Shown here: positions 39,687 to 50,521 of the stretch, one piece after another
Position numbering within the stretch: position 1 is the first letter of the stretch
How the letters are laid out: each line of letters opens with the position of its first letter
Assembly (NCBI GenBank): GCA_021776685.1
Contig: JAJFFJ010000019.1
Location: 1 to 50,521, forward strand
DNA from: Alphaproteobacteria bacterium
Lineage (GTDB): Bacteria > Pseudomonadota > Alphaproteobacteria > Bin65
Direction of reading: 5' to 3'
Length of the DNA stretch: 50,521 nt
The notes under the pieces: model-generated
Seen by the model: the letters and a program-made list of their open reading frames with translations, nothing else
Database searches by the model: none
Told to the model about the DNA's origin: nothing
Translations under genes and position numbers: made by a program

Positions 39687-40295
39687 CTACCAGGCGTTCT
39701 GGGCTGCCACCATGCAAAACAGCATCGGGAAGGACAACAAGGTGTTGGTCCGCGAGAACAGCATGGCTGTCCGCGCCGCCTTGGCCTTGGTGTCAGCATC
39801 CGCATCGACCATGCCGAGTGCTTTCTTCTGGTTCGGCCAGATGACGAACCAGACGTTGAACCACATGATCGCGCCCATCCACATGCCGATGCCGATCAGT
39901 GTGAAGCCCACATTATAGCCGTCTGGTGCGACGAGGCCGATGGTGAGAGCCTGAACAAAGTAGCCGTTCAGTATCGCCAGGATAACGCCGGTGACGATGG
40001 TCGACATCGCGCCCCAGCGGAACCACCACAGCACCGCCGGCGCAATCACTTTGCCGATGGCCGGTTTCTGCTCGTCCGGGATCTTCGGCATGTTCGGGAT
40101 CTGGACGAAGTTCAGATACCAGAGCAGGCCTATCCACATCACGCCCGACAGGACGTGGAAATAGCGGAACAGGAATTGCCAGAAGGATTTGTCGAAACTG
40201 AATGCCTGGATCACGCTGTAGATGAGCCAGATAACGATTGCGAGCGCGAAGCCCGCGAGCACGGTATTGCGCAGACTGGTCAGGATTGCAGCCAT
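39687..40295 (-). CDS. PuuD/urate-oxidase-N (DUF989)-like membrane protein
   Basis: 202 aa, five membrane helices. FRYFHVLSGVMWIGLLWYLNFVQ and AVLWWFRWGAMSTIVTG are the conserved core, and LFSRTNTLLSFPMLFCMVAAQ ends the protein. In urate hydroxylase PuuD this domain is followed by cytochrome c; here the gene stops first. Conserved histidines suggest haem. Whether it handles urate is doubtful, as no purine-degradation genes are adjacent. It is divergent from the NDUFAF6-like gene. Confidence 0.88.
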   Translation of the reverse strand: MAAILTSLRNTVLAGFALAIVIWLIYSVIQAFSFDKSFWQFLFRYFHVLSGVMWIGLLWYLNFVQIPNMPKIPDEQKPAIGKVIAPAVLWWFRWGAMSTIVTGVILAILNGYFVQALTIGLVAPDGYNVGFTLIGIGMWMGAIMWFNVWFVIWPNQKKALGMVDADADTKAKAARTAMLFSRTNTLLSFPMLFCMVAAQNAW

Positions 40296-40583
40296 ACTCC
40301 CATCCCCTATGTTGTGTTCTGAGGGTCCTATTTACGAGATATAGTGTGTAAACAACGACGCCCGCAAGCGCCAAAGACCAACCGCTGTTGGCGACCAGCA
40401 TCCCCGTGTTGGCTGGTCCCGCGTCGGATGGCCCAGGATCGTCCTAACCTAAGCCGCCTCTCGGTGATTGTGAAGCCGTGCTGGCATACATAGGATGGAT
40501 TTTCCAGATTCGGGGATTTGCCAGATGTCTGCCAAAGCCCCATACGTGATGTTCCTCCCAATTTTCTGAACACAGCCGCGCCG

Positions 40584-41456
40584 ATGCCGCGTAAGCCGAA
40601 CCCTCGCCTGAGCTATGCCGCCGATCAGGTCCGCCGCTACGACTATGACCGGTACCTGACCAGCCTGTTTGCGCCCGCGGACCGGCGGGAGGGGCTGTTT
40701 GCCTTGCTCGCCTTCAACATCGAGGTGGCCAAGACCCGCGAAACCGTCACCGAACCGCTGCTGGGCCAGATCCGCCTGCAATGGTGGCGGGAGGCCATTG
40801 CCGAGATCTATGACGGCGATCAGGAGACCGGCGACGCTGTACGCCGGCACGAGGTGGCGATCCCACTGGCAGACGCGATCCGCACCCATAACCTGCCGCG
40901 GCGCGCCTTCGACCAGCTCATCGATGCCCGCGAATTCGACCTCACCGATCAGGCGCCTGAGTCGCTCGGCACGCTGATGGACTATCTGGACGCCACCGCC
41001 GGCGGCTTGTTCCATCTGGCCGCCATCCTCCTGGGCGCCCGCGACACCCCATCGGTTTCGGTGGCCCGCAGTGTCGGCCGGGCCTGGGGGCTGACCGGGC
41101 TCATCCGGGCGATCCCCTTCCACGCCCGTCAGCAGCGTTGCTTCATTCCGCAGGATCTTCTTGAGGCCACGGGCCTGAAACAAAGCGACCTCTATGCCCT
41201 GAAACCGGTCGAACCCCTGGAGGCCGCCGTCCAACGCCTGTGGCAGGAAGCCAAGCGCCGGCTGCAGCGGGCACGCAACCAACGGGACACGGCGGACGCC
41301 GCGGCTCTGCCAGCGCTCCTGCCGGCGGTGCTGGCAGGGCGCTACCTGAAGCGGATGGAGGCGGCCAGGTTCAACATCCTGTCCAAGCCGCCAGAGATCG
41401 GCCGTCTTCGTCGCCAGATCATGCTCTGGCGCGCCGCCCGCCGGGGCCGTTTCTGA
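40584..41456 (+). CDS. Squalene/phytoene-synthase superfamily protein, NDUFAF6-like
   Basis: 290 aa. The fold is recognisable: DRYLTSLFAPADRREGLFAL, GQIRLQWWREAI. The Asp-rich motifs of active prenyltransferases are missing, however: NIEVAKTRETVTEP replaces the first, and LTGLIRAIPFHARQQRCFIP the second. The latter strongly resembles human NDUFAF6, a complex I assembly factor, so I favour that role over isoprenoid synthesis. ATG 40584 is chosen by family start. Divergent from the PuuD-like gene and convergent with trmFO. Confidence 0.9.
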   Translation: MPRKPNPRLSYAADQVRRYDYDRYLTSLFAPADRREGLFALLAFNIEVAKTRETVTEPLLGQIRLQWWREAIAEIYDGDQETGDAVRRHEVAIPLADAIRTHNLPRRAFDQLIDAREFDLTDQAPESLGTLMDYLDATAGGLFHLAAILLGARDTPSVSVARSVGRAWGLTGLIRAIPFHARQQRCFIPQDLLEATGLKQSDLYALKPVEPLEAAVQRLWQEAKRRLQRARNQRDTADAAALPALLPAVLAGRYLKRMEAARFNILSKPPEIGRLRRQIMLWRAARRGRF

Positions 41457-41462
41457 GACCGG

Positions 41463-42836
41463 TTATTCCGCTGCGGCCAGGGCCGGGTTGAGCCAGCCGT
41501 CCAGATCGCGAAGCGCCCGTTCGGCATAGGCGCGCTTGCGGTCGCGGCCTTTCAACTTGCGGCGGCCCGATTCGGGGTCCGGCGCAGGCGGTGGCGGAAA
41601 CAGGCCAAAGTTGACATTCATCGGCTGAAACGTGTCGGCCGTCGCACCGCCGGTAATATGGCCCAGCAGCGCGCCCAGCGCCGTGGTGGGCGGCGGCAAC
41701 GCAAAATCCGCGCCCAGTCTGTCGGCGGCGGCCATGCGCCCTGCGAGCAGCCCCACAGCGGCGCTCTCCACATAGCCCTCGACCCCGGTGATCTGCCCGG
41801 CAAAGCGCAGGCGCGGGTCTGCCGTCAGGCGCAGGCCCTCATCCAGCAGCTTTGGACTGTTCAGGAAGGTATTGCGGTGGATGCCGCCCAGGCGGGCGAA
41901 CCGGGCGTTCTCGAGCCCCGGGATGGCCCGGAAGATCGCACTCTGGGCGCCATGCTTCAGCTTGGTCTGGAAGCCGACCAGGTTGTAGAGGGTCCCGAGC
42001 GCGTTGTCCTGGCGCAACTGTACAACCGCGTGCGCCCGCTTGCCGGTCCGGGGATCGGTCAACCCTACTGGCTTCATGGGCCCAAACCGCAAGGTCTCGG
42101 GTCCGCGCTCCGCCATCACCTCGATCGGCAGGCAGCCTTCGAAATAGGGGGTGTCCTGCTCCCATTCCTTGAATTCGGTTTTCTCGCCGGTAATCAATGC
42201 CGCGATGAATGCCTCATACTGGGCCTCGTCCATGGGGCAGTTGATATAGTCCTTGCCCGTACCGCCCGGGCCCGGCTTGTCGTAGCGGGACTGGAACCAG
42301 GCCACGTCCATGTTGACGCTGTCGGTGTAGACAATCGGCGCAATGGCATCGAAGAAGGCGAGGGCGTCCTCGCCGGTGATCCCGAGGATCGCCTGGGAGA
42401 GGGCCGGGGAGGTGAGGGGGCCGGTCGCCACGATGACGCTGTCCCAGTCCGCTGGGGGCAGGGCGTCGATTTCTTCCCGCGCAATATCAACCAGGGGCTC
42501 TGCGTCCAGGGCCGCGCTGACGGCCGCGGAGAAATGATCCCGGTCCACCGCCAGCGCGCCACCCGCAGGCACCTTGTGGGCGTCTGCCGCGGTCAGCACC
42601 AGCGAGCCGCACCGGCGCATTTCTTCATGCAGCAGCCCGACCGCATTGCCCGCCCAGTCGTCCGAGCGGAAGGAGTTGCTGCAGACCAGTTCCGCAAGCG
42701 CCTCCGTCTGATGGGCTTCGGTGCCTCGCACAGGGCGCATCTCGTGCAACACCACCGGCACGCCAGCTCGTGCCAGCTGCCAGGCCGCCTCGCTGCCGGC
42801 CAGCCCGCCGCCGATGATATGGACCGGCGCGGTCAT
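41463..42836 (-). CDS. trmFO: Folate-dependent tRNA (uracil-54-C5)-methyltransferase
   Basis: 457 aa FAD enzyme that makes ribothymidine-54 in the tRNA T-loop from methylene-tetrahydrofolate. The FAD-binding fingerprint is [17 protein letters not shown], with [21 protein letters not shown] (the catalytic Cys region) and [19 protein letters not shown] further on. A phased repeat lies 80-110 bp upstream. It converges on the NDUFAF6-like gene with a 6-nt gap. Confidence 0.97.
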
Positions 42837-42914
42837 CGGTCGCCCTGGCCCGGCTGTTGGTGGTGCGCCGGAAATCCTGAAAGCATTTCGGTGAGGCGGC
42901 CCAAATATCCCTCG

Positions 42915-42944
42915 ATGTGGGGGAATGTGGGGGAATGTGGGGGA
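42915..42944 (+). repeat. Triple perfect 10-bp repeat ATGTGGGGGA (copy 3)
   Basis: Three identical 10-bp units in the 476-bp gap between divergent trmFO and the hydrolase gene. The TGGGG pentamers with 5-bp spacers match the arrays at 16196 and 34571. A T-run followed by GCGTTGC at about 43030-43043 may be a remnant of the GTTGC partner array. Nothing else is recognised in the gap. Confidence 0.75.
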
Positions 42945-43312
42945 GTCTGATATTTCACCCCAGCTCGATCCGTCCCGAACTCACCAATAGGACGGCTGGG
43001 TCGCGCCTTCGTCGCCAGCTTGAGACGCCTATTTTTTGCGTTGCTAACTTTTGTCATCTTTGAGCTTTGCCGCGATCAGGAGTGACGGCCTCGCGCAATG
43101 GGAGGCGGTTGAAAAGTAGGAAATATTTCCGCCAATTCAAGCAAGAATACAGCGGCCGGAGGCTTGTGGCAGGAAAGGGAAATCGGGCGCCGCCGTTCAA
43201 GCCCAAGTTTGGACATTTTGGGACAGCCGATGTCAAATCGCTTGTGCACTCCACTTCGCTTGTTACGCTGCGCCCGCCAACTAGAACGCCGAGCGATTAT
43301 CGGGCACGGACA

Positions 43313-44500
43313 ATGACTTCGCAGAACGACAGTACGCTTAAGTGGGACGGCCAGCCGCCGCGATCCTTTGATATTTTCGTCGAAGACGGGGTGCTCGACG
43401 ACCTGCGCACCCGTCTCCGCGCCACCCGCTGGCCTGACCAGGCGCCGGGCGAACCTTGGCAGTTCGGCACCGATGTCGCCTATCTGAAGGGGCTGTGCAC
43501 CTACTGGGCTGAGGAATATGACTGGAGGGCCCAGGAGGCGGCGCTCAACAGCCTGAACAACCATAAGGTAACCATCGGTGGCTACGATCTGCACTATGCC
43601 CATGTGCCGGGAGAGTCACCGGATGCGCCGCCGTTGCTTCTTACCCATGGCTGGCCCGGATCATTCTGCGAATATCACCAACTGGTTCAGCGACTGACGC
43701 GGCCGTCAGACTTTGGGGGCCGGCCGGAGGACTCATTTACGGTCGTAGTGCCATCGCTGCCTGGCTACGGCTTTTCCTTCACGCCGGGCCAGCGCCGGTT
43801 CGGCCTGCGGGATGCCACGGATATTCTCGCGGTGTTGATGACCGACGTGCTGGGCTATGACAAGTTCTTCGCCCATGGCCAGGATTTTGGCTCCTATGTT
43901 GCGGCCCACCTCGGCAACGCTCACGCCGACAAGACGCGGGGCATTCACATTACGCTGATGGCGCTGCCGAGGGTTCTGCCCGAGCTGCCCGAGCCAACGG
44001 ACGAGGAGAAACGTTACCAGGCGCAGCTTGCCAACTGGCTGACCGAAGAGACCGGCTATGTCCAGATCATGGGAACCAAGCCACAAACCCTTTCGTTCGG
44101 GCTCACCGATTCTCCTGCCGGATTGGCATCGTGGATCGTTGAGAAATGGCGCTCATGGAGTGATTGCAACGGTGATGTGGACGCTCATTTCGGCCGGGAC
44201 GTGATCCTGACCAACATCATGATCTACTGGGTTACGGGGGCGATCGGTTCCTCCGGATGGCCCTACTACCAGCGCACCCGTGAGCCATGGATCATATCCG
44301 AAGATGAGCCAGTGACCGTGCCCACCGCCTATGTGGAGCATCCCTTCGAGATCCTGACACCACCGCGCTCGCTCGCGGAAATCATGTACACCAACATCCA
44401 ACGCTGGACGGTTATGGACAGCGGCGGGCATTTCGCGGCCCTTGAAGACCCGGACCGGCTGGCCAACGACATTTCGTCCTTCTTCGCCAGCCTGCACTAG
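43313..44500 (+). CDS. Epoxide-hydrolase-type alpha/beta hydrolase with EHN domain
   Basis: 395 aa. The N-terminal EHN domain (residues 10-90, DDLRTRLRATRWPDQ) precedes the hydrolase fold. HGWPG (112-116) is the oxyanion loop, D191 in HGQDFGS is the nucleophile position (most relatives read GGDWG), and GGHFAALEDP holds the catalytic His. Members open epoxides to diols, and juvenile-hormone-type hydrolases share the layout. ATG 43313 is chosen; the frame is open back to 43067 without similarity. It is a single gene with no close partners. Confidence 0.92.
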   Translation: MTSQNDSTLKWDGQPPRSFDIFVEDGVLDDLRTRLRATRWPDQAPGEPWQFGTDVAYLKGLCTYWAEEYDWRAQEAALNSLNNHKVTIGGYDLHYAHVPGESPDAPPLLLTHGWPGSFCEYHQLVQRLTRPSDFGGRPEDSFTVVVPSLPGYGFSFTPGQRRFGLRDATDILAVLMTDVLGYDKFFAHGQDFGSYVAAHLGNAHADKTRGIHITLMALPRVLPELPEPTDEEKRYQAQLANWLTEETGYVQIMGTKPQTLSFGLTDSPAGLASWIVEKWRSWSDCNGDVDAHFGRDVILTNIMIYWVTGAIGSSGWPYYQRTREPWIISEDEPVTVPTAYVEHPFEILTPPRSLAEIMYTNIQRWTVMDSGGHFAALEDPDRLANDISSFFASLH

Positions 44501-44734
44501 TTAATCGGCCGGCAGCGTCGGGATCTTGGGCCTGCTTGGGTATCCACCCATAGCCGTAGGCTGCCACTGCCCGTGGTGCCAGAAAGCGCGCGCCGTTCCT
44601 CCTATTTAGTCAAACCATTCTCTCTGCAAGTCACAGCTTGAGCGCGAGCTGCGCGACGACGGAACTAGGTGGTCCCAGCCGACTCCAGTAGGTTTCGCAT
44701 TTCTCGAGCGCGCGCCGAAAGCAAGATATTTAGT

Positions 44735-44965
44735 TGCCGCTGCTGATAGGGTTAAAGAAAAAAAGTATATCAATAAATAAAAAATACATCATTTCTTCAA
44801 TAATCGACACAATTACCCAAAAATATCGTGTATTCATGATAATTGGAAAACTGAGGATAATTTTATAAATATTGCATTTGTTATGATCTCTCCATATATA
44901 TAAAAATCCTCTTTTCGATATGTGCGTTCTTTAGAATTTGTTTCTAGAATATTTTAGGATTTTCT
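44735..44965. other. AT-rich non-coding island
   Basis: About 230 bp made mostly of A and T (A-tracts, TATATA steps) in an otherwise GC-rich window. No ORF crosses it. It lies in the 655-bp gap (44501-45155) between the hydrolase and DUF1611 genes. The rest of the gap has no recognised motif beyond a TATATA about 20 bp before the DUF1611 start. Confidence 0.75.
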
Positions 44966-45155
44966 ACCGCACATCTGTATCAAGTAATAAGCCAAAAAGC
45001 GACTTCGATCCCGGCCTGTAATGGCGAAGGGGAGCGTAGGCGTCAGACGGCATATTCCTACAGATACTCTTAGTTTGTTGAGTCGTTAAGTCTGCGTCCG
45101 ACCGGCGTCGAACCTGACGTGGTCGGTCGTATATATATTCACCCAAGGAGACCCA

Positions 45156-46352
45156 ATGCCTACCTCGCTCGCCCTACCGGCGAAGACAGATGCTCCCATC
45201 CTCCCCGCACCCGTCGCGAAGCTCAGCCGGCACCTGATGCCAGCGCGAAAGCGCGACGATGTCGCGCCAAGGCCTACCGCGATTATCTATTGCGAAGGCA
45301 ATTTCGGTGCAATCGACGGCAAAACCGCAAACGGGCTTGTTCGTCATTCTGAGAAATATGAGATTCTCTCGGTCATCGACAGCGAGAAAGCTGGTCTCGA
45401 TACGGGCGTTGTTCTCGATGACAGGGCAAATGCCATCCCGGTTTGCCGTGATCTCGCCGATGCGCTCTGGCAAGCCGTCGATGTGCCTGACTATTTCATC
45501 TTCGGCATGGCGCCATTGAGTGGAATGCTGTCCATGCACGAGCGGAAACTGGTGCTTGAGGCGATCGGCCTTGGGATGAACGTCGTCAACGGCCTCCACG
45601 AATTCCTGAACGATGACCCGGAATTCGCCGCAGCGAGCGCGGCGAACAATGTCCATATCCTCGACGTCCGAAAGCCCCGCGCCAAGAAAGATCTGCGGAT
45701 GTTCAGCGGCCGCATCGATGAGGTCACCTGTCCAAAAATCGCTGTGCTCGGCACCGACGGCGCCATCGGCAAGCGCACCACCGCCACGATCCTGACAAAA
45801 GCTCTCAATGACCGTGGCCTAAAGGCGGTGATGGTGGGCACCGGGCAAACCGGCCTCATTCAGGGTGCCCGCTACGGCATCGCGCTCGACGCCATTCCGT
45901 CGCAATTCTGTTCCGGCGAAATGGAAGCCACAATGGTCGAAGCCTTCGAGGGCGAAAATCCCGATGTGATCATCGTGGAAGGGCAAGGCGCGCTCAGCCA
46001 TCCTGCGTACCTGACCTCGACCTTCATCCTGCGCGGTAGCCACCCCGATGGCGTTGTGCTGCAGCATGCACCGGGACGCACCAATCTTGGCGACTTCGGC
46101 GACATGCCCATGCCGACCCCGGCCAGCGAGATCAATCTCATTGAGACGTTCGCCGACACCAAAGTCATCGGCCTGACGATCAACCATGAGAACATGAGCG
46201 ACGCCGAAGTTGGTACGGCTATCACCGACTATACGAGTGACCTCGGCATCCCCGTGACCGACGCGCTGACCCGCTCGCCAGACCGTCTGGCGGAAATGGT
46301 CTTCCGCGCATTCCCGGAACTGGAGGCGAAGGTGACCGGCCAAGCGCAATGA
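45156..46352 (+). CDS. DUF1611 family P-loop protein (DgcN-like)
   Basis: 398 aa. An N-terminal Rossmann-like domain (AIIYCEGNFGAIDGKTANGL) is followed by a P-loop domain with GTDGAIGKRTT at residues 199-209 and VIIVEGQGALSHPAY. A DUF1611 protein, DgcN, has been described as an N-acetyltransferase for D-glutamate in marine bacteria, so amino-acid N-acylation is a reasonable guess. It overlaps the PLP racemase gene by 4 nt, which fits a role with D-amino acids. AAGGAG precedes the ATG. An extended N-terminus of about 38 residues, without obvious structure, is unusual. Confidence 0.88.
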   Translation: MPTSLALPAKTDAPILPAPVAKLSRHLMPARKRDDVAPRPTAIIYCEGNFGAIDGKTANGLVRHSEKYEILSVIDSEKAGLDTGVVLDDRANAIPVCRDLADALWQAVDVPDYFIFGMAPLSGMLSMHERKLVLEAIGLGMNVVNGLHEFLNDDPEFAAASAANNVHILDVRKPRAKKDLRMFSGRIDEVTCPKIAVLGTDGAIGKRTTATILTKALNDRGLKAVMVGTGQTGLIQGARYGIALDAIPSQFCSGEMEATMVEAFEGENPDVIIVEGQGALSHPAYLTSTFILRGSHPDGVVLQHAPGRTNLGDFGDMPMPTPASEINLIETFADTKVIGLTINHENMSDAEVGTAITDYTSDLGIPVTDALTRSPDRLAEMVFRAFPELEAKVTGQAQ

Positions 46353-47527
46353 CCGCGCCGCGCCTGGAAATCGACCTCGAGAAAATCCAACACAATGCCA
46401 GAGTACTGGTTCAGCGACTGGCGCCTCACGGCGTTTCGGTGACTGGTGTCACCAAAGCGTGCCTCGGGTCGCCAGAGATCGCCGGCGCCATGGTGCGCGC
46501 CGGCGTCCAAGGCATCGGCGACTCGCGCATCGAGAACATAGAAGCGATGCGCCGGGCCGGCATACAGGCGCCGATGACGCTTATCCGCTCTCCCATGCCG
46601 AGCCAGACCGACCGGATCGTCGCGGCCGCTGACATAAGCCTCAATACCGAAGTCGACGTTATCGCGATGCTCGACACTGCCGCGCGACGAGCCGGAACCA
46701 CACACGGGGTCGTCCTGATGGTCGAGCTGGGGGATCTCCGAGAGGGCATCATGCCCAGCGACGTTGTGGCGATTGCACAGAAAGTCCTTTGCTTCCCGAA
46801 CATCGTGCTCAAGGGCATCGGGACCAATCTTGCGTGCCGCAGCGGTGTGTCGCCCGACGCGGAGAATATGGCTGAGCTGTCAGTGTTGGCGGAGTCGGTC
46901 GAGTCGGCAACCGGCGTCCCGCTCGACATCATCTCCGGCGGCAACTCGGCCAATCTTTCCTGGATATTCGGCGGTGCCGACACCGGGAGAATTAACGAGC
47001 TCCGCCTGGGAGAATCAATTCTCCTCGGGTGCGAACCGCTAATTGGTGAACCGATCGACGGCCTTTTCAGCGATGCCTTCACGCTCGTGGCTGAGGTGGT
47101 CGAGTCGAAGATCAAACCATCAAAGCCTTGGGGCGAGATCGCAGGGTTCACCACAGAAGTGCAGGCGCAATTCGGAGACCGTGGCCAGATTACGCAATCC
47201 ATCCTGGCGATTGGCCATCAGGACACGTATCCCGATGGCCTTTCCGCCCCTCCCGGAATTGCCATTCTCGACGCCACCAGTGATCACCTGGTGATCGACT
47301 CCGGTGACATTCACACGCCGGTCGGCGCCGAGATCAGATTCCAGCCGAATTACGCGGCGCTGGTTCGCTCAATGACATCACCCTTCGTGACCAAGGCCAT
47401 GAAAGGACAGGGAGAGAGTGTCGTGCCCGGCAAAATCTCCCAAATTGAAGCGCCTAACGGCTTCATTACGCCCATCGTTCCACAGCCGGCACCGAGATCA
47501 GCAATTGGCCTGTCCGCTCCCGGATAA
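46349..47527 (+). CDS. PLP-dependent alanine/ornithine-racemase family enzyme
   Basis: 392 aa, fold-type III. The PLP lysine is K36 (VTGVTKACLG), and RLEIDLEKIQHNARVLV and the GIGTNLACRSG and DIISGGNSANL phosphate-binding loops match the family. Its relatives racemise ornithine or other amino acids. It starts within the DUF1611 stop (ATGA), so the two proteins are made together. The substrate is not defined by the sequence, and no transporter or dehydrogenase is next to it. Confidence 0.9.
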   Translation: MTAPRLEIDLEKIQHNARVLVQRLAPHGVSVTGVTKACLGSPEIAGAMVRAGVQGIGDSRIENIEAMRRAGIQAPMTLIRSPMPSQTDRIVAAADISLNTEVDVIAMLDTAARRAGTTHGVVLMVELGDLREGIMPSDVVAIAQKVLCFPNIVLKGIGTNLACRSGVSPDAENMAELSVLAESVESATGVPLDIISGGNSANLSWIFGGADTGRINELRLGESILLGCEPLIGEPIDGLFSDAFTLVAEVVESKIKPSKPWGEIAGFTTEVQAQFGDRGQITQSILAIGHQDTYPDGLSAPPGIAILDATSDHLVIDSGDIHTPVGAEIRFQPNYAALVRSMTSPFVTKAMKGQGESVVPGKISQIEAPNGFITPIVPQPAPRSAIGLSAPG

Positions 47528-47739
47528 ACATCGGGCCATGTGCGGGGCAAGCCGTCTGCTTTAACTTATGGCAGGCGCAGCAGATGGCTTTCCTGAAGGG
47601 CGCGACCTAGGTTAACGCCAGAACGATCATTCCACCGTTGATTTCACCGGTGAATCCCAAACATCGACGCTTTTTCAGCCGCCGGTCCCGGCGCGCGAGC
47701 GGTTCCGCTCCAGCGTTCCCATTCCGCCGGCAAATCCAG

Positions 47740-47787
47740 CGCCCATTCAAACGCCCATTCAAACGCCCATTCAAACGCTCACCCAAA
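47740..47787 (+). repeat. 12-bp tandem repeat just before the GST gene
   Basis: CGCCCATTCAAA three times exactly (47740-47775) plus a variant CGCTCACCCAAA (47776-47787). The array ends eight bases before the GST ATG and so covers the leader next to the ribosome site (AAAGGT). The remainder of the gap 47528-47739 has nothing I recognise. Confidence 0.85.
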
Positions 47788-47795
47788 GGTAACTC

Positions 47796-48482
47796 ATGCT
47801 GAAATTCTACTACAGTGCTGCGCCCAACCCGACCAAGGTTGCCCTGTTCCTGGAAGAAGCAGGACTGGACTATGATCCGATCCCGATCGACACCCGCGCT
47901 GGTGACCAGCACCATGCGGATTTTCTGGCGGTCAATCCGAACGCCAAGGTCCCGGTGATCGTGGATGACGGCGTAACTGTATTCGACAGCAATGCCATCC
48001 TGCTTTACCTGGCGGAGAAGACCGGACAGTTCATGCCGGAGGACACGCCGGCGGCCCGCGGAGAGATGCTGTCGTGGCTGATGTTCGTCGCCACCGGCAT
48101 CGGGCCTTTCACGGGCCAGGCGGTTCACTTCCAGGCCTATGCGCCGGAAAAGCTGCCCTATGCCATCAACCGCTACCGGTTTGAGGCCGAACGGCACTAT
48201 GCCATCCTCGATGCCCGGCTGGCGGACAACCGCTTCCTGCTTGGCGACACCTACACTTTCGTCGATATGGATGCCTGGGGCTGGGCCCGCCTGATCCCCA
48301 ACATTCTGGGCGAGGACGCGCTGGACAAGCTGCCGAACCTGAAACGTATGGTCGAAGAGATCAATCTGCGCCCGGCGGCTGATCGCGCCATTGCCCTGAA
48401 AGACCGCCACGAGTTCAAGACCGAAATGGACGAGGAATCAAAGCGCGCCATGTTCCCGCAGAACTACAGCACCGCGGCCTGA
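47796..48482 (+). CDS. Glutathione S-transferase family protein
   Basis: 228 aa. The N-terminal thioredoxin-like domain reads FYYSAAPNPTKVALFLEEAG, with NPNAKVPVIVDDG (cis-Pro) and VFDSNAILLYLAEK (the Ser that binds the gamma-Glu of glutathione). The helical C-terminal domain has DTYTFVDMDAWGWARLI, the conserved N-cap motif. It is likely cytosolic; detoxification or disulfide reductase activity is possible. The leader carries a 12-bp minisatellite. Confidence 0.93.
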   Translation: MLKFYYSAAPNPTKVALFLEEAGLDYDPIPIDTRAGDQHHADFLAVNPNAKVPVIVDDGVTVFDSNAILLYLAEKTGQFMPEDTPAARGEMLSWLMFVATGIGPFTGQAVHFQAYAPEKLPYAINRYRFEAERHYAILDARLADNRFLLGDTYTFVDMDAWGWARLIPNILGEDALDKLPNLKRMVEEINLRPAADRAIALKDRHEFKTEMDEESKRAMFPQNYSTAA

Positions 48483-48560
48483 TCGCGTCGGGAAGAGGGA
48501 GCGTGGCCGTGTACGCTCAGACAGACACTAGTCGCCGGCGCCCCTAGAACAGCGCCCCTT

Positions 48561-48592
48561 GATCAGCGCAGGACTGCCAACCTGCGCTGATC
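48561..48592. terminator. Strong hairpin after the GST gene
   Basis: Perfect 12-bp inverted repeat GATCAGCGCAGG / CCTGCGCTGATC with loop ACTGCCAA, 78 nt after the GST stop. There is no T-run after it, so factor-dependent termination or a protein-binding site is possible. Confidence 0.5.
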
Positions 48593-48660
48593 GACGATTC
48601 TGATATTTGCCAGGCCTGGACCTCGGAAATCGACGCCGCTGCCGCGAACTTTCAATAAAA

Positions 48661-48689
48661 TTGACAGGTCAATTAATTTGACAATTGTC
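48661..48689. promoter_or_regulatory. Operator-like cluster of inverted repeats
   Basis: Two TTGACA boxes (48661-48666 and 48678-48683) on one strand, 17 bp apart from start to start. The second overlaps the perfect palindrome GACAATTGTC (48680-48689), and a TCAATTAATTTGA near-palindrome lies between. It is about 95-120 bp upstream of the secreted PAN-domain gene. Confidence 0.4.
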
Positions 48690-48781
48690 CCAGTGGCAGG
48701 CTGATTGGCGCCACACCGGCTTTGTCCCAAGGGGCGCGTGGATGGAGCCGACGATGGCAGCGTCCATTTTGGGGCAATCAA

Positions 48782-49486
48782 ATGCACATTCGGAAATATG
48801 CCGGTCTTTTGACCGGCCTCTTGGTGTTAGGTTTCTGGACGAATCTTGCGCAGGCGGACGGCGAACGAATCGAAGAAAACAACTTCCCGATCTGGCGCTG
48901 CGCAAACTCAAACAACTGGGCGCACTACAGTAGGGGCTCTTCTGTACGGTTAGCCAAATGCACCACTTTCAAGAACGCGCAAGGACGCTCGTTCAACATT
49001 GAGATTCTTTACCAGGATAATTTTCGCGACTACAGAGGCAAGCGCTATGCAAACTTCCGTTTTTGCCGGGGGCGCGGCTGCCAATTTAGAGTTCCAACGA
49101 ACAACCTGATCTCATCCGGCAGGGTCGGCATGAGAGGTTCTCACCACATTAACCGGACACAGGCAAAGAATATTGTCCTGTACATCCTGCGGAATCGGGA
49201 TCGCTATTGGCGCGGCCGTAGAAGCGACGTCTTCAAAAAACATGGCGTAAGGCGGGGGCAGAGCAAGGATGTCTATCGCGGTGTATCGCTCGAAAAGGGC
49301 TACGATCGGCCAGGCAAGGCCTACGCCAGATACCCGGTTGCAATAGCCCATCATTGCCGGATCAGATGCATCCAGGACAGGCGCTGTAAAGCGTTCACAT
49401 ATGCGTCCCGCGCCTGCTTCCTGAAAAGCTATCCCTACAACCGGGTGCGGTCTCGTACCGTCACGTCGGGCAAACGCATCCGGTAG
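48782..49486 (+). CDS. Secreted basic protein with a C-terminal PAN/Apple-type domain
   Basis: 234 aa. A signal peptide (about 1-25, MHIRKYAGLLTGLLVLGFWT, cleavage near AQA) precedes a very Arg-rich mature protein. The last 65 residues hold CRIRCIQDRRCKAFTYASRACFLKS, a PAN-type cysteine pattern as used in protein or carbohydrate binding. The first part has further cysteines (WRCANSNN, AKCTTFKN, FCRGRGCQF). ATG 48782 begins the signal peptide; a frame open upstream to 48722 has none. No partner gene is obvious. Confidence 0.8.
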   Translation: MHIRKYAGLLTGLLVLGFWTNLAQADGERIEENNFPIWRCANSNNWAHYSRGSSVRLAKCTTFKNAQGRSFNIEILYQDNFRDYRGKRYANFRFCRGRGCQFRVPTNNLISSGRVGMRGSHHINRTQAKNIVLYILRNRDRYWRGRRSDVFKKHGVRRGQSKDVYRGVSLEKGYDRPGKAYARYPVAIAHHCRIRCIQDRRCKAFTYASRACFLKSYPYNRVRSRTVTSGKRIR

Positions 49487-49596
49487 GACTGCGGATTGGT
49501 GCCCCTCTGGGCCGGTAATACAATCCTGGGGATTTTCCGACTCGTCAGGCAACCCGGCCGCGCCCTCCAAGTGCTGGCTGGTAGGTCGGCTACGGC

Positions 49597-50521
49597 TCAG
49601 GAGTTCTCGGCAGGTGCCGGCGCGTAGACCTCGATCGGGTCATCGAAGCCCTTGACCTTGTGGTGGCCCAGCGCGCGTCCGTCGGTCTCACTGGCGGCCG
49701 CGAATTCACTGGAATACAGCACTCGTTCACTCAGGTTCCGGGTCAGGCCCTCGATCCGTGCGACCAGGTTTACCGCTGGGCCGATAACGGTGAAATCGAG
49801 CCGGTGGGCGGCACCGATATTGCCATACATGACATCGCCGATATGCAGCGCCGCGCCGCAGGTGATGGGGGGAAGGGCGTCGCCACCGCGCCCCTGGTTC
49901 AGCCCGTCGATGGCGTCAAACCCGGCGTGCACCGCGTCGAGCGCAGCACGGCAGCGGTCGGCGGCGTTATCTCCGTCCACCAGAAAGACCGCCAGCATGG
50001 CGTCACCGATGAATTTGAGGATTTCCCCGCCCTCTGCCTGGACCGGCTGGCCGAAGGCGTCGAAATAGAGATTGAGATGCTCGATCAGGGTGTCCCGCGG
50101 CAGGGTGTTGGAAATCTCCGTAAATCCCTGAAGATCGGTCATCAGGATTACAGCACGCAAGGTGCGGCCATGGCCGCGTCGGATGTTGCCGGCGAGAATT
50201 TCGCCGCCGGTGCGCTTGCCCACATAGGTGTCGAGCAGCACGGCCGCCAGATATCGGACCGCCTGCACCTCGGTCAGTTGCCCGATGGTCGGCAGGATTG
50301 AATCCACCAGCCGGAGATGATCGGTCGAAAAGCCGCCCGGGGCCCTGGTGACGAAGGTGATCGCCTGGTCGGACTGGTCGGAGAAGGGCAGCTTCATGGC
50401 GCAATAGTCGGTGCAGCCCTGCTCCTGATAATCGATAATTGACGGGAAAATCTCTGGACCGCCAAGTGTTTCAATATGCCAGCGAAAGGCGGCGGCGCCT
50501 TCCCGCAGAATCTGGAGGGGA
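49597..50521 (-). CDS. Class III adenylate/guanylate cyclase domain protein (partial, 5' end outside window)
   Basis: 308 codons are visible and the frame stays open to the window edge, so the N-terminus is missing. A sensor-like upstream region (WHIETLGGPEIFPS, then YCAMKLPFSDQ) leads to the cyclase domain. There AVILMTDLQGFTEIS and LKFIGDAMLAVF give the two metal Asp residues and the Lys. DFTVIGPAVNLVARIE carries the later catalytic segment. It makes cAMP or cGMP, and which one is not certain. An internal ATG at 50397 could be mistaken for the start, but upstream codons continue the same conserved region. Confidence 0.9.
   Translation of the reverse strand, partial: PLQILREGAAAFRWHIETLGGPEIFPSIIDYQEQGCTDYCAMKLPFSDQSDQAITFVTRAPGGFSTDHLRLVDSILPTIGQLTEVQAVRYLAAVLLDTYVGKRTGGEILAGNIRRGHGRTLRAVILMTDLQGFTEISNTLPRDTLIEHLNLYFDAFGQPVQAEGGEILKFIGDAMLAVFLVDGDNAADRCRAALDAVHAGFDAIDGLNQGRGGDALPPITCGAALHIGDVMYGNIGAAHRLDFTVIGPAVNLVARIEGLTRNLSERVLYSSEFAAASETDGRALGHHKVKGFDDPIEVYAPAPAENS

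Follow-up and report, generated by a model that had tools for sequence, protein, structure and literature searches.

An apparently mobile, conserved pair of overlapping DUF1611 and PLP racemase genes that may form N-acyl amino acids

A DUF1611 gene and a gene for an Orr-type PLP racemase-family protein recur together as an overlapping pair that is distinct from the DgcN-DgcA pair and appears to be passed between distant bacteria as a unit. The reading we favour, which is tentative but has a fair prospect of being right, is that of a horizontally transferred, translationally coupled module in which a racemase and an acyl-trapping DUF1611 enzyme would together yield an N-acyl amino acid. The pair was analysed in a window of 50,521 nucleotides (the whole stretch of DNA studied), in which it comprises the following features:

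45156..46352, + strand: DUF1611 protein of 398 aa with N-terminal Rossmann-like and C-terminal BioD-like P-loop domains; residues 1-35 predicted to be disordered
46349..47527, + strand: Orr-type fold-type III PLP racemase-family protein of 392 aa with PLP lysine K36; residues 355-392 predicted to be disordered
46349..46352, + strand: 4-nt stop/start overlap, ATGA, of the two genes, with the same geometry in 27/27 distinct pair loci
45144..45149, + strand: Shine-Dalgarno-like AAGGAG 5' of the DUF1611 ATG, found by eye, position approximate

The first-pass annotation had called a 4-nt overlap between a DUF1611 gene and a PLP racemase gene, and both reading frames and the overlap lie where it placed them. 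A consensus promoter scan at the locus found none, and an Rfam search of window positions 40000-50521 returned no match, negatives that carry no information either way. Just 5' of the pair lies an AT-rich stretch (window 44500-45099; GC 0.44 versus about 0.6 around it).

Profile searches assigned the first protein to DUF1611, with both domains above their cut-offs (PF07755, 225.3 bits versus 25; PF17396, 89.5 bits versus 22.6). It scored below the DgcN equivalog model NF041892 (155.3 bits versus a cut-off of 480) and falls into a separate clade; described earlier as "DgcN-like", it is not DgcN itself. The P-loop GTDxAIGKRTT of the paired proteins is invariant or nearly so. Common to the paired and DgcN branches are the P-loop GTDxxxGK, TGQTG, EGQGxLxH, H304, R308 and N343, whereas the two branches differ by fixed residues at dozens of other positions. 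Judged from these alignments, a common core with fixed differences is as expected of enzymes that would share a type of reaction but not a substrate. A structure predicted from an alignment of homologues (mean pLDDT 83.3) matched Ava_3511 (2obn, Z = 40.6), TM0796 (2g0t, Z = 37.9) and DgcN (7xrj, Z = 32.6) most closely over the whole chain; every protein ranked below these had just the P-loop domain in common with it, MinD, BioD and cobyrinic acid a,c-diamide synthase among them.

The second protein matched Ala_racemase_N (PF01168, 98.3 bits versus a cut-off of 24.1), and K36, the PLP lysine, is invariant and aligned with the lysine of alanine racemase. Together with the predicted whole-chain fold, these features place it among the fold-type III PLP enzymes; the earlier claim that the partner belongs to a superfamily other than that of DgcA is supported. 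The predicted structure, likewise built from a homologue alignment (mean pLDDT 86.8), matched alanine racemase 5yyc in Foldseek (E = 2.5e-21, TM 0.71). As it resembles alanine racemase and D-threonine aldolase alike, the fold alone cannot decide between racemase and aldolase. Sequence models favour an Orr-type racemase: the best NCBIfam model, ornithine racemase Orr (NF040742), matched over the full length at 326.5 bits, and the aldolase BhcC model reached 28.3 bits, far under this value. Since the Orr score lies below the family cut-off, it gives only a weak guess at the substrate. The conserved cores of both the DUF1611 and the racemase folds are intact.

Co-occurrence of the two genes had been named beforehand as a check on the first-pass reading, with lack of conservation counting against it; the pair is kept at 27 distinct loci (the window, L002-L004, L071-L083, L089-L091, L093 and L094-L099, with the Phaeobacter porticola plasmid locus and G331, apparently the same, counted once). 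Of 385 genomes surveyed from the same class, 104 had DUF1611 above the cut-off and 15 had Orr-type matches exceeding 160 bits; 17 further Orr matches, at 43 bits or less, were excluded as other alanine-racemase-like proteins. Fourteen of the 15 strong Orr-type genes directly follow a DUF1611 gene in the same orientation, and the fifteenth (G064) belongs to a split locus in which the DUF1611 and Orr genes both run into contig ends. Among 349 genomes surveyed across the phylum, 11 had an Orr match at E up to 1e-20. Seven of these are paired, three of them, including the window's own, being already in the class sample; in the remaining four loci (L086, L087, L088 and L092), the 4-kb stretch had no match to DUF1611. 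In L087 and L088 an oxidase-like frame, noted by eye, precedes the unpaired Orr gene.

The pair was also found in three MAG loci assigned to Hyphomicrobiales, Planctomycetota and Krumholzibacteriota, where binning errors are possible; a fourth locus (Limnochordia) carried Orr only. The racemase matched 22 plasmid records, of which the best seven all carry the pair (four Vibrio species, Aliiroseovarius crassostreae, Ruegeria conchae and Phaeobacter porticola) and eight of the other 15 were inspected. A Roseibium aggregatum plasmid bears only a C-terminal racemase remnant (L110:8001-8393), in a similar accessory region with a Crp/Fnr regulator, small genes, transglutaminases and a cold-shock gene. 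Marine invertebrates are frequent among the stated sources of the pair plasmids (L094-L100: crab, shellfish hatchery, barnacle, one coarse seawater filter, and three records without a source), with sampling bias likely.

At all 27 distinct loci, an in-frame Orr-type start codon begins at the fourth-last nucleotide of the DUF1611 frame, stop codon included (ATG in 19, GTG in 4 and TTG in 4; L082 has an alternative ATG at -1). This fixed overlap suggests translational coupling and a fixed stoichiometry of the two products.

Phylogenetic trees of the two proteins gave matching pictures. In the DUF1611 tree (62 rows, L073 being absent), one clade with support 100/99 holds 29 rows: 26 paired proteins, the contig-cut protein of G064 (L085) and two without Orr (L101 and L102), the placement of L101, like that of L111 and L113, being unsure because of long branches. 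In the racemase tree (39 rows), all 27 paired proteins form one clade, again with support 100/99, which excludes the 12 unpaired Orr proteins. Distance matrices of the two proteins correlated closely over 26 pairs (Mantel r 0.89, with 0/5000 permutations as high; L096, a near-copy of L095, was left out), a value to which shared descent contributes. That the two genes are coincidental neighbours with separate functions is therefore extremely improbable: members of each family do also occur alone, but the constant overlap, the matching clades and the correlated distances together nearly refute it.

As a comparison, we used 20 loci of the DgcN branch, each a 19-kb stretch from a genome of the same class, on long contigs among the best-scoring DUF1611 matches. 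DgcA lies nearby in 20/20 of these control loci versus 0/27 pair loci, which, with matching clades that include neither DgcN nor the unpaired Orr proteins, argues for a distinct mobile module rather than DgcN with an odd partner. The Planctomycetota and Krumholzibacteriota rows nest among alphaproteobacterial rows in the trees, and several copies are on plasmids; by this pattern of relatedness, the pair appears to travel between distant bacteria as a unit.

Four genomes of the window's own family (G065, G185, G279 and G357) gave no Orr match, and three of the four gave a DUF1611 match. An empty insertion site was sought in them and none was demonstrated: of the genes flanking the pair in the window, only the upstream epoxide hydrolase gene has a close relative (87%, in G279), the 19-kb stretch around that relative has nothing else in common with the window by blastn, and the downstream GST reaches no more than 43-47% identity in its best matches. 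No relative of the DUF1611 alignment was confirmed in viral contigs. Phage records yielded distant DUF1611 proteins only, of about 30% identity, in 34 records from jumbo phages (Dickeya phage AD1, L113:2791-3846, and Erwinia jumbo phages); the AD1 gene overlaps a putative asparagine synthase gene.

We propose that the Orr-type racemase would switch a free amino acid back and forth between its L- and D-forms, and that the DUF1611 enzyme would trap one enantiomer by placing an acyl group, probably acetyl from acetyl-CoA, on its alpha-amino group, so that the pair would drive a one-way conversion to the N-acyl amino acid. PLP racemases bind their substrate as an aldimine, for which its alpha-amino group must be free, so an N-acyl amino acid is not a substrate for them. 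Racemisation would thus precede acylation, the reverse of DgcN followed by DgcA, where DgcN reportedly acetylates D-Glu first and the enolase-superfamily enzyme is then said to racemise the N-acetyl compound. We infer the catalytic activity, step order and acyl donor of the pair in this way, together with a substrate other than D-Glu; family resemblance alone hints that this is perhaps a basic or diamino acid.

Several observations speak against this proposal. The solved folds nearest to the DUF1611 protein are Ava_3511 and TM0796 rather than DgcN, its P-loop domain is also like those of ATP-using enzymes (in VIA-align, BioD, cobyrinic acid a,c-diamide synthase, CTP synthase and cyclic 2,3-diphosphoglycerate synthetase, Z about 13-15), and DUF1611 proteins of the pair clade occur without Orr in Vibrio coralliilyticus (L102) and V. 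nigripulchritudo (L101). In V. coralliilyticus the DUF1611 gene lies directly 5' of hflK-hflC, with no Orr match, and the V. nigripulchritudo protein is divergent (39%). The first two observations, with the invariant or nearly invariant P-loop, would also suit an ATP-dependent ligase or kinase that acts by BioD-like chemistry on the racemised amino acid in place of a CoA acyltransferase. We consider this distinctly unlikely, as the DgcN branch has this P-loop too and DgcN is reportedly an N-acetyltransferase, a designation carried by both model NF041892 and PDB entry 7xrj.

The acyl-trap proposal also has to be weighed against D-amino-acid catabolism, in which outside D-amino acids would be turned into usable L-forms or N-acyl-L-forms. 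Here the DgcN/DgcA precedent, the ABC transporter beside dgcA in Pantoea, a possible deacylase (an MlrC-like M81 hydrolase) near 3/27 pair loci, and an unpaired Orr-type gene behind an annotated D-amino acid dehydrogenase in Shinella (L107:2710-5788) all lend some plausibility. Yet no amino-acid transporter, dehydrogenase or deacylase recurs across the 27 pair loci, and a racemase alone would give the L-form from a D-amino acid, making acylation needless. PF07364 was unmatched in the window's genome, in a search that matched nowhere, its control included. We regard catabolism as unlikely, if still worth keeping in view. The first-pass annotation was right that the pairing is real, and it is conserved and, by its overlap, apparently coupled; its further suggestion of D-amino-acid turnover is a conjecture, and the neighbouring genes are not catabolic-looking.

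Genes recurring around the pair were counted in the 27 pair loci (475 kb; L089 and L002 are short stretches of 4 kb and 7.5 kb) and in the 20 control loci (380 kb):

GroESL near the pair: L074, L080, L081, L083, L097
HflKC near the pair or a DUF1611 gene: L094, L099, L135, L102
Protein of about 117 aa, with one apparent transmembrane segment by eye: L099:7515-7865; also L075, L077, L079, L080, L081, L082, L083, L098, L136
T2SS pilotin-like gene in four Vibrio plasmid pair loci: L094:13097-13474, L095:11083-11448, L096:11094-11459, L097:11094-11459
MlrC-like M81 hydrolase: L002:2649-4130, L004:10911-12392, L078:11085-12578

GroESL lies near 5/27 pair loci (Fisher p 0.06), HflKC near 3/27, either of them at p 0.014, and the protein of about 117 aa near 10/27 (p 0.0025), versus 0/20 control loci in each case; the families were picked after the plasmid loci had been seen, so these Fisher values are optimistic. 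The M81 hydrolase (3/27) and the pilotin-like gene (4/27) were likewise found near 0/20 controls. The 117-aa copy of L099 had no significant Pfam or NCBIfam match. The pilotin-like gene lies directly 3' of the racemase gene, which it overlaps in L094, L096 and L097 (T2SSS_2 was tested for L097). The M81 hydrolase was considered as an obligatory third gene and rejected, since so few pair loci have it nearby; the L078 copy shares 76% identity with that of L004 and 71% with that of L002. A close copy is present in 2/15 pair genomes of the class sample (100% and 87% identical, one only beside the pair) and in 0/16 comparison genomes, where G182 has 43-46% relatives.

The GroESL and HflKC counts, with Hsp20 and NhaA on the Vibrio plasmids, hint at a stress island, in which the pair would travel with accessory protein-quality-control genes and its product would protect cells under stress. 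We treat this link as a lead. It is compatible with the acyl-trap proposal, but the families were chosen post hoc and the window has none of the five neighbours listed; moreover, G331 and G187 have a further GroEL besides the one near the pair, but no second GroEL was found in G197 and G290, of one genus, so it is not accessory there. Stress protection is quite improbable on this evidence, and so too is its sharper form, a mobile plasmid or island pathway beside GroESL/HflKC whose product would be a stress metabolite, either an N-acyl-D-amino acid or some other compound derived from a racemised amino acid, and which would not serve to degrade D-amino acids. The terms 'HflK', 'GroEL' and 'racemase' are absent from the main text of PMC8290217, which we compared by analogy. 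The catabolic, ATP-dependent and stress-metabolite readings are not all mutually exclusive with one another.

As far as we found, DUF1611 function has been tied only to the D-glutamate pair DgcN-DgcA, and no paper on function turned up under the DUF1611 name in the literature searched. With a second, separate branch partnered by a PLP racemase, DUF1611 is seen to have joined up with racemases of two unrelated kinds, and paired DUF1611 genes should not be annotated as DgcN. For the acyl-trap module, the small two-gene system, with its probably soluble proteins, makes substrate, acyl donor and step order directly testable.

The nearest known system, DgcN-DgcA (EC 2.3.1.312, N-acetyltransferase, and EC 5.1.1.25, N-acetyl-D-glutamate racemase, according to PMC11747546), likewise has DUF1611 directly followed by a racemase, with the P-loop, TGQTG, EGQG and other core residues in common. 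It differs in its DUF1611 branch, about 27-34% identical by tblastn and in a separate clade, and in its partner, an enolase-superfamily enzyme rather than a PLP enzyme; the implied order of steps is reversed. In Halorussus halophilus, too, a DUF1611 gene adjoins an epimerase gene, but the partner is annotated as a dipeptide epimerase, not a PLP racemase, and the DUF1611 protein is 41% identical. Ava_3511 and TM0796, nearer in fold to the paired protein than DgcN, have PDB titles without a function. Ornithine racemase Orr shares the full-length match and the invariant PLP lysine with the pair racemase, which nevertheless scores below the cut-off of 480 and forms a clade apart from all 12 unpaired Orr proteins tested. 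Our literature search, which left subscription papers mostly outside its reach, found no earlier account of DUF1611 paired with a PLP racemase, and we regard this combination with an unrelated racemase as a variant of the known DUF1611-racemase pairing.
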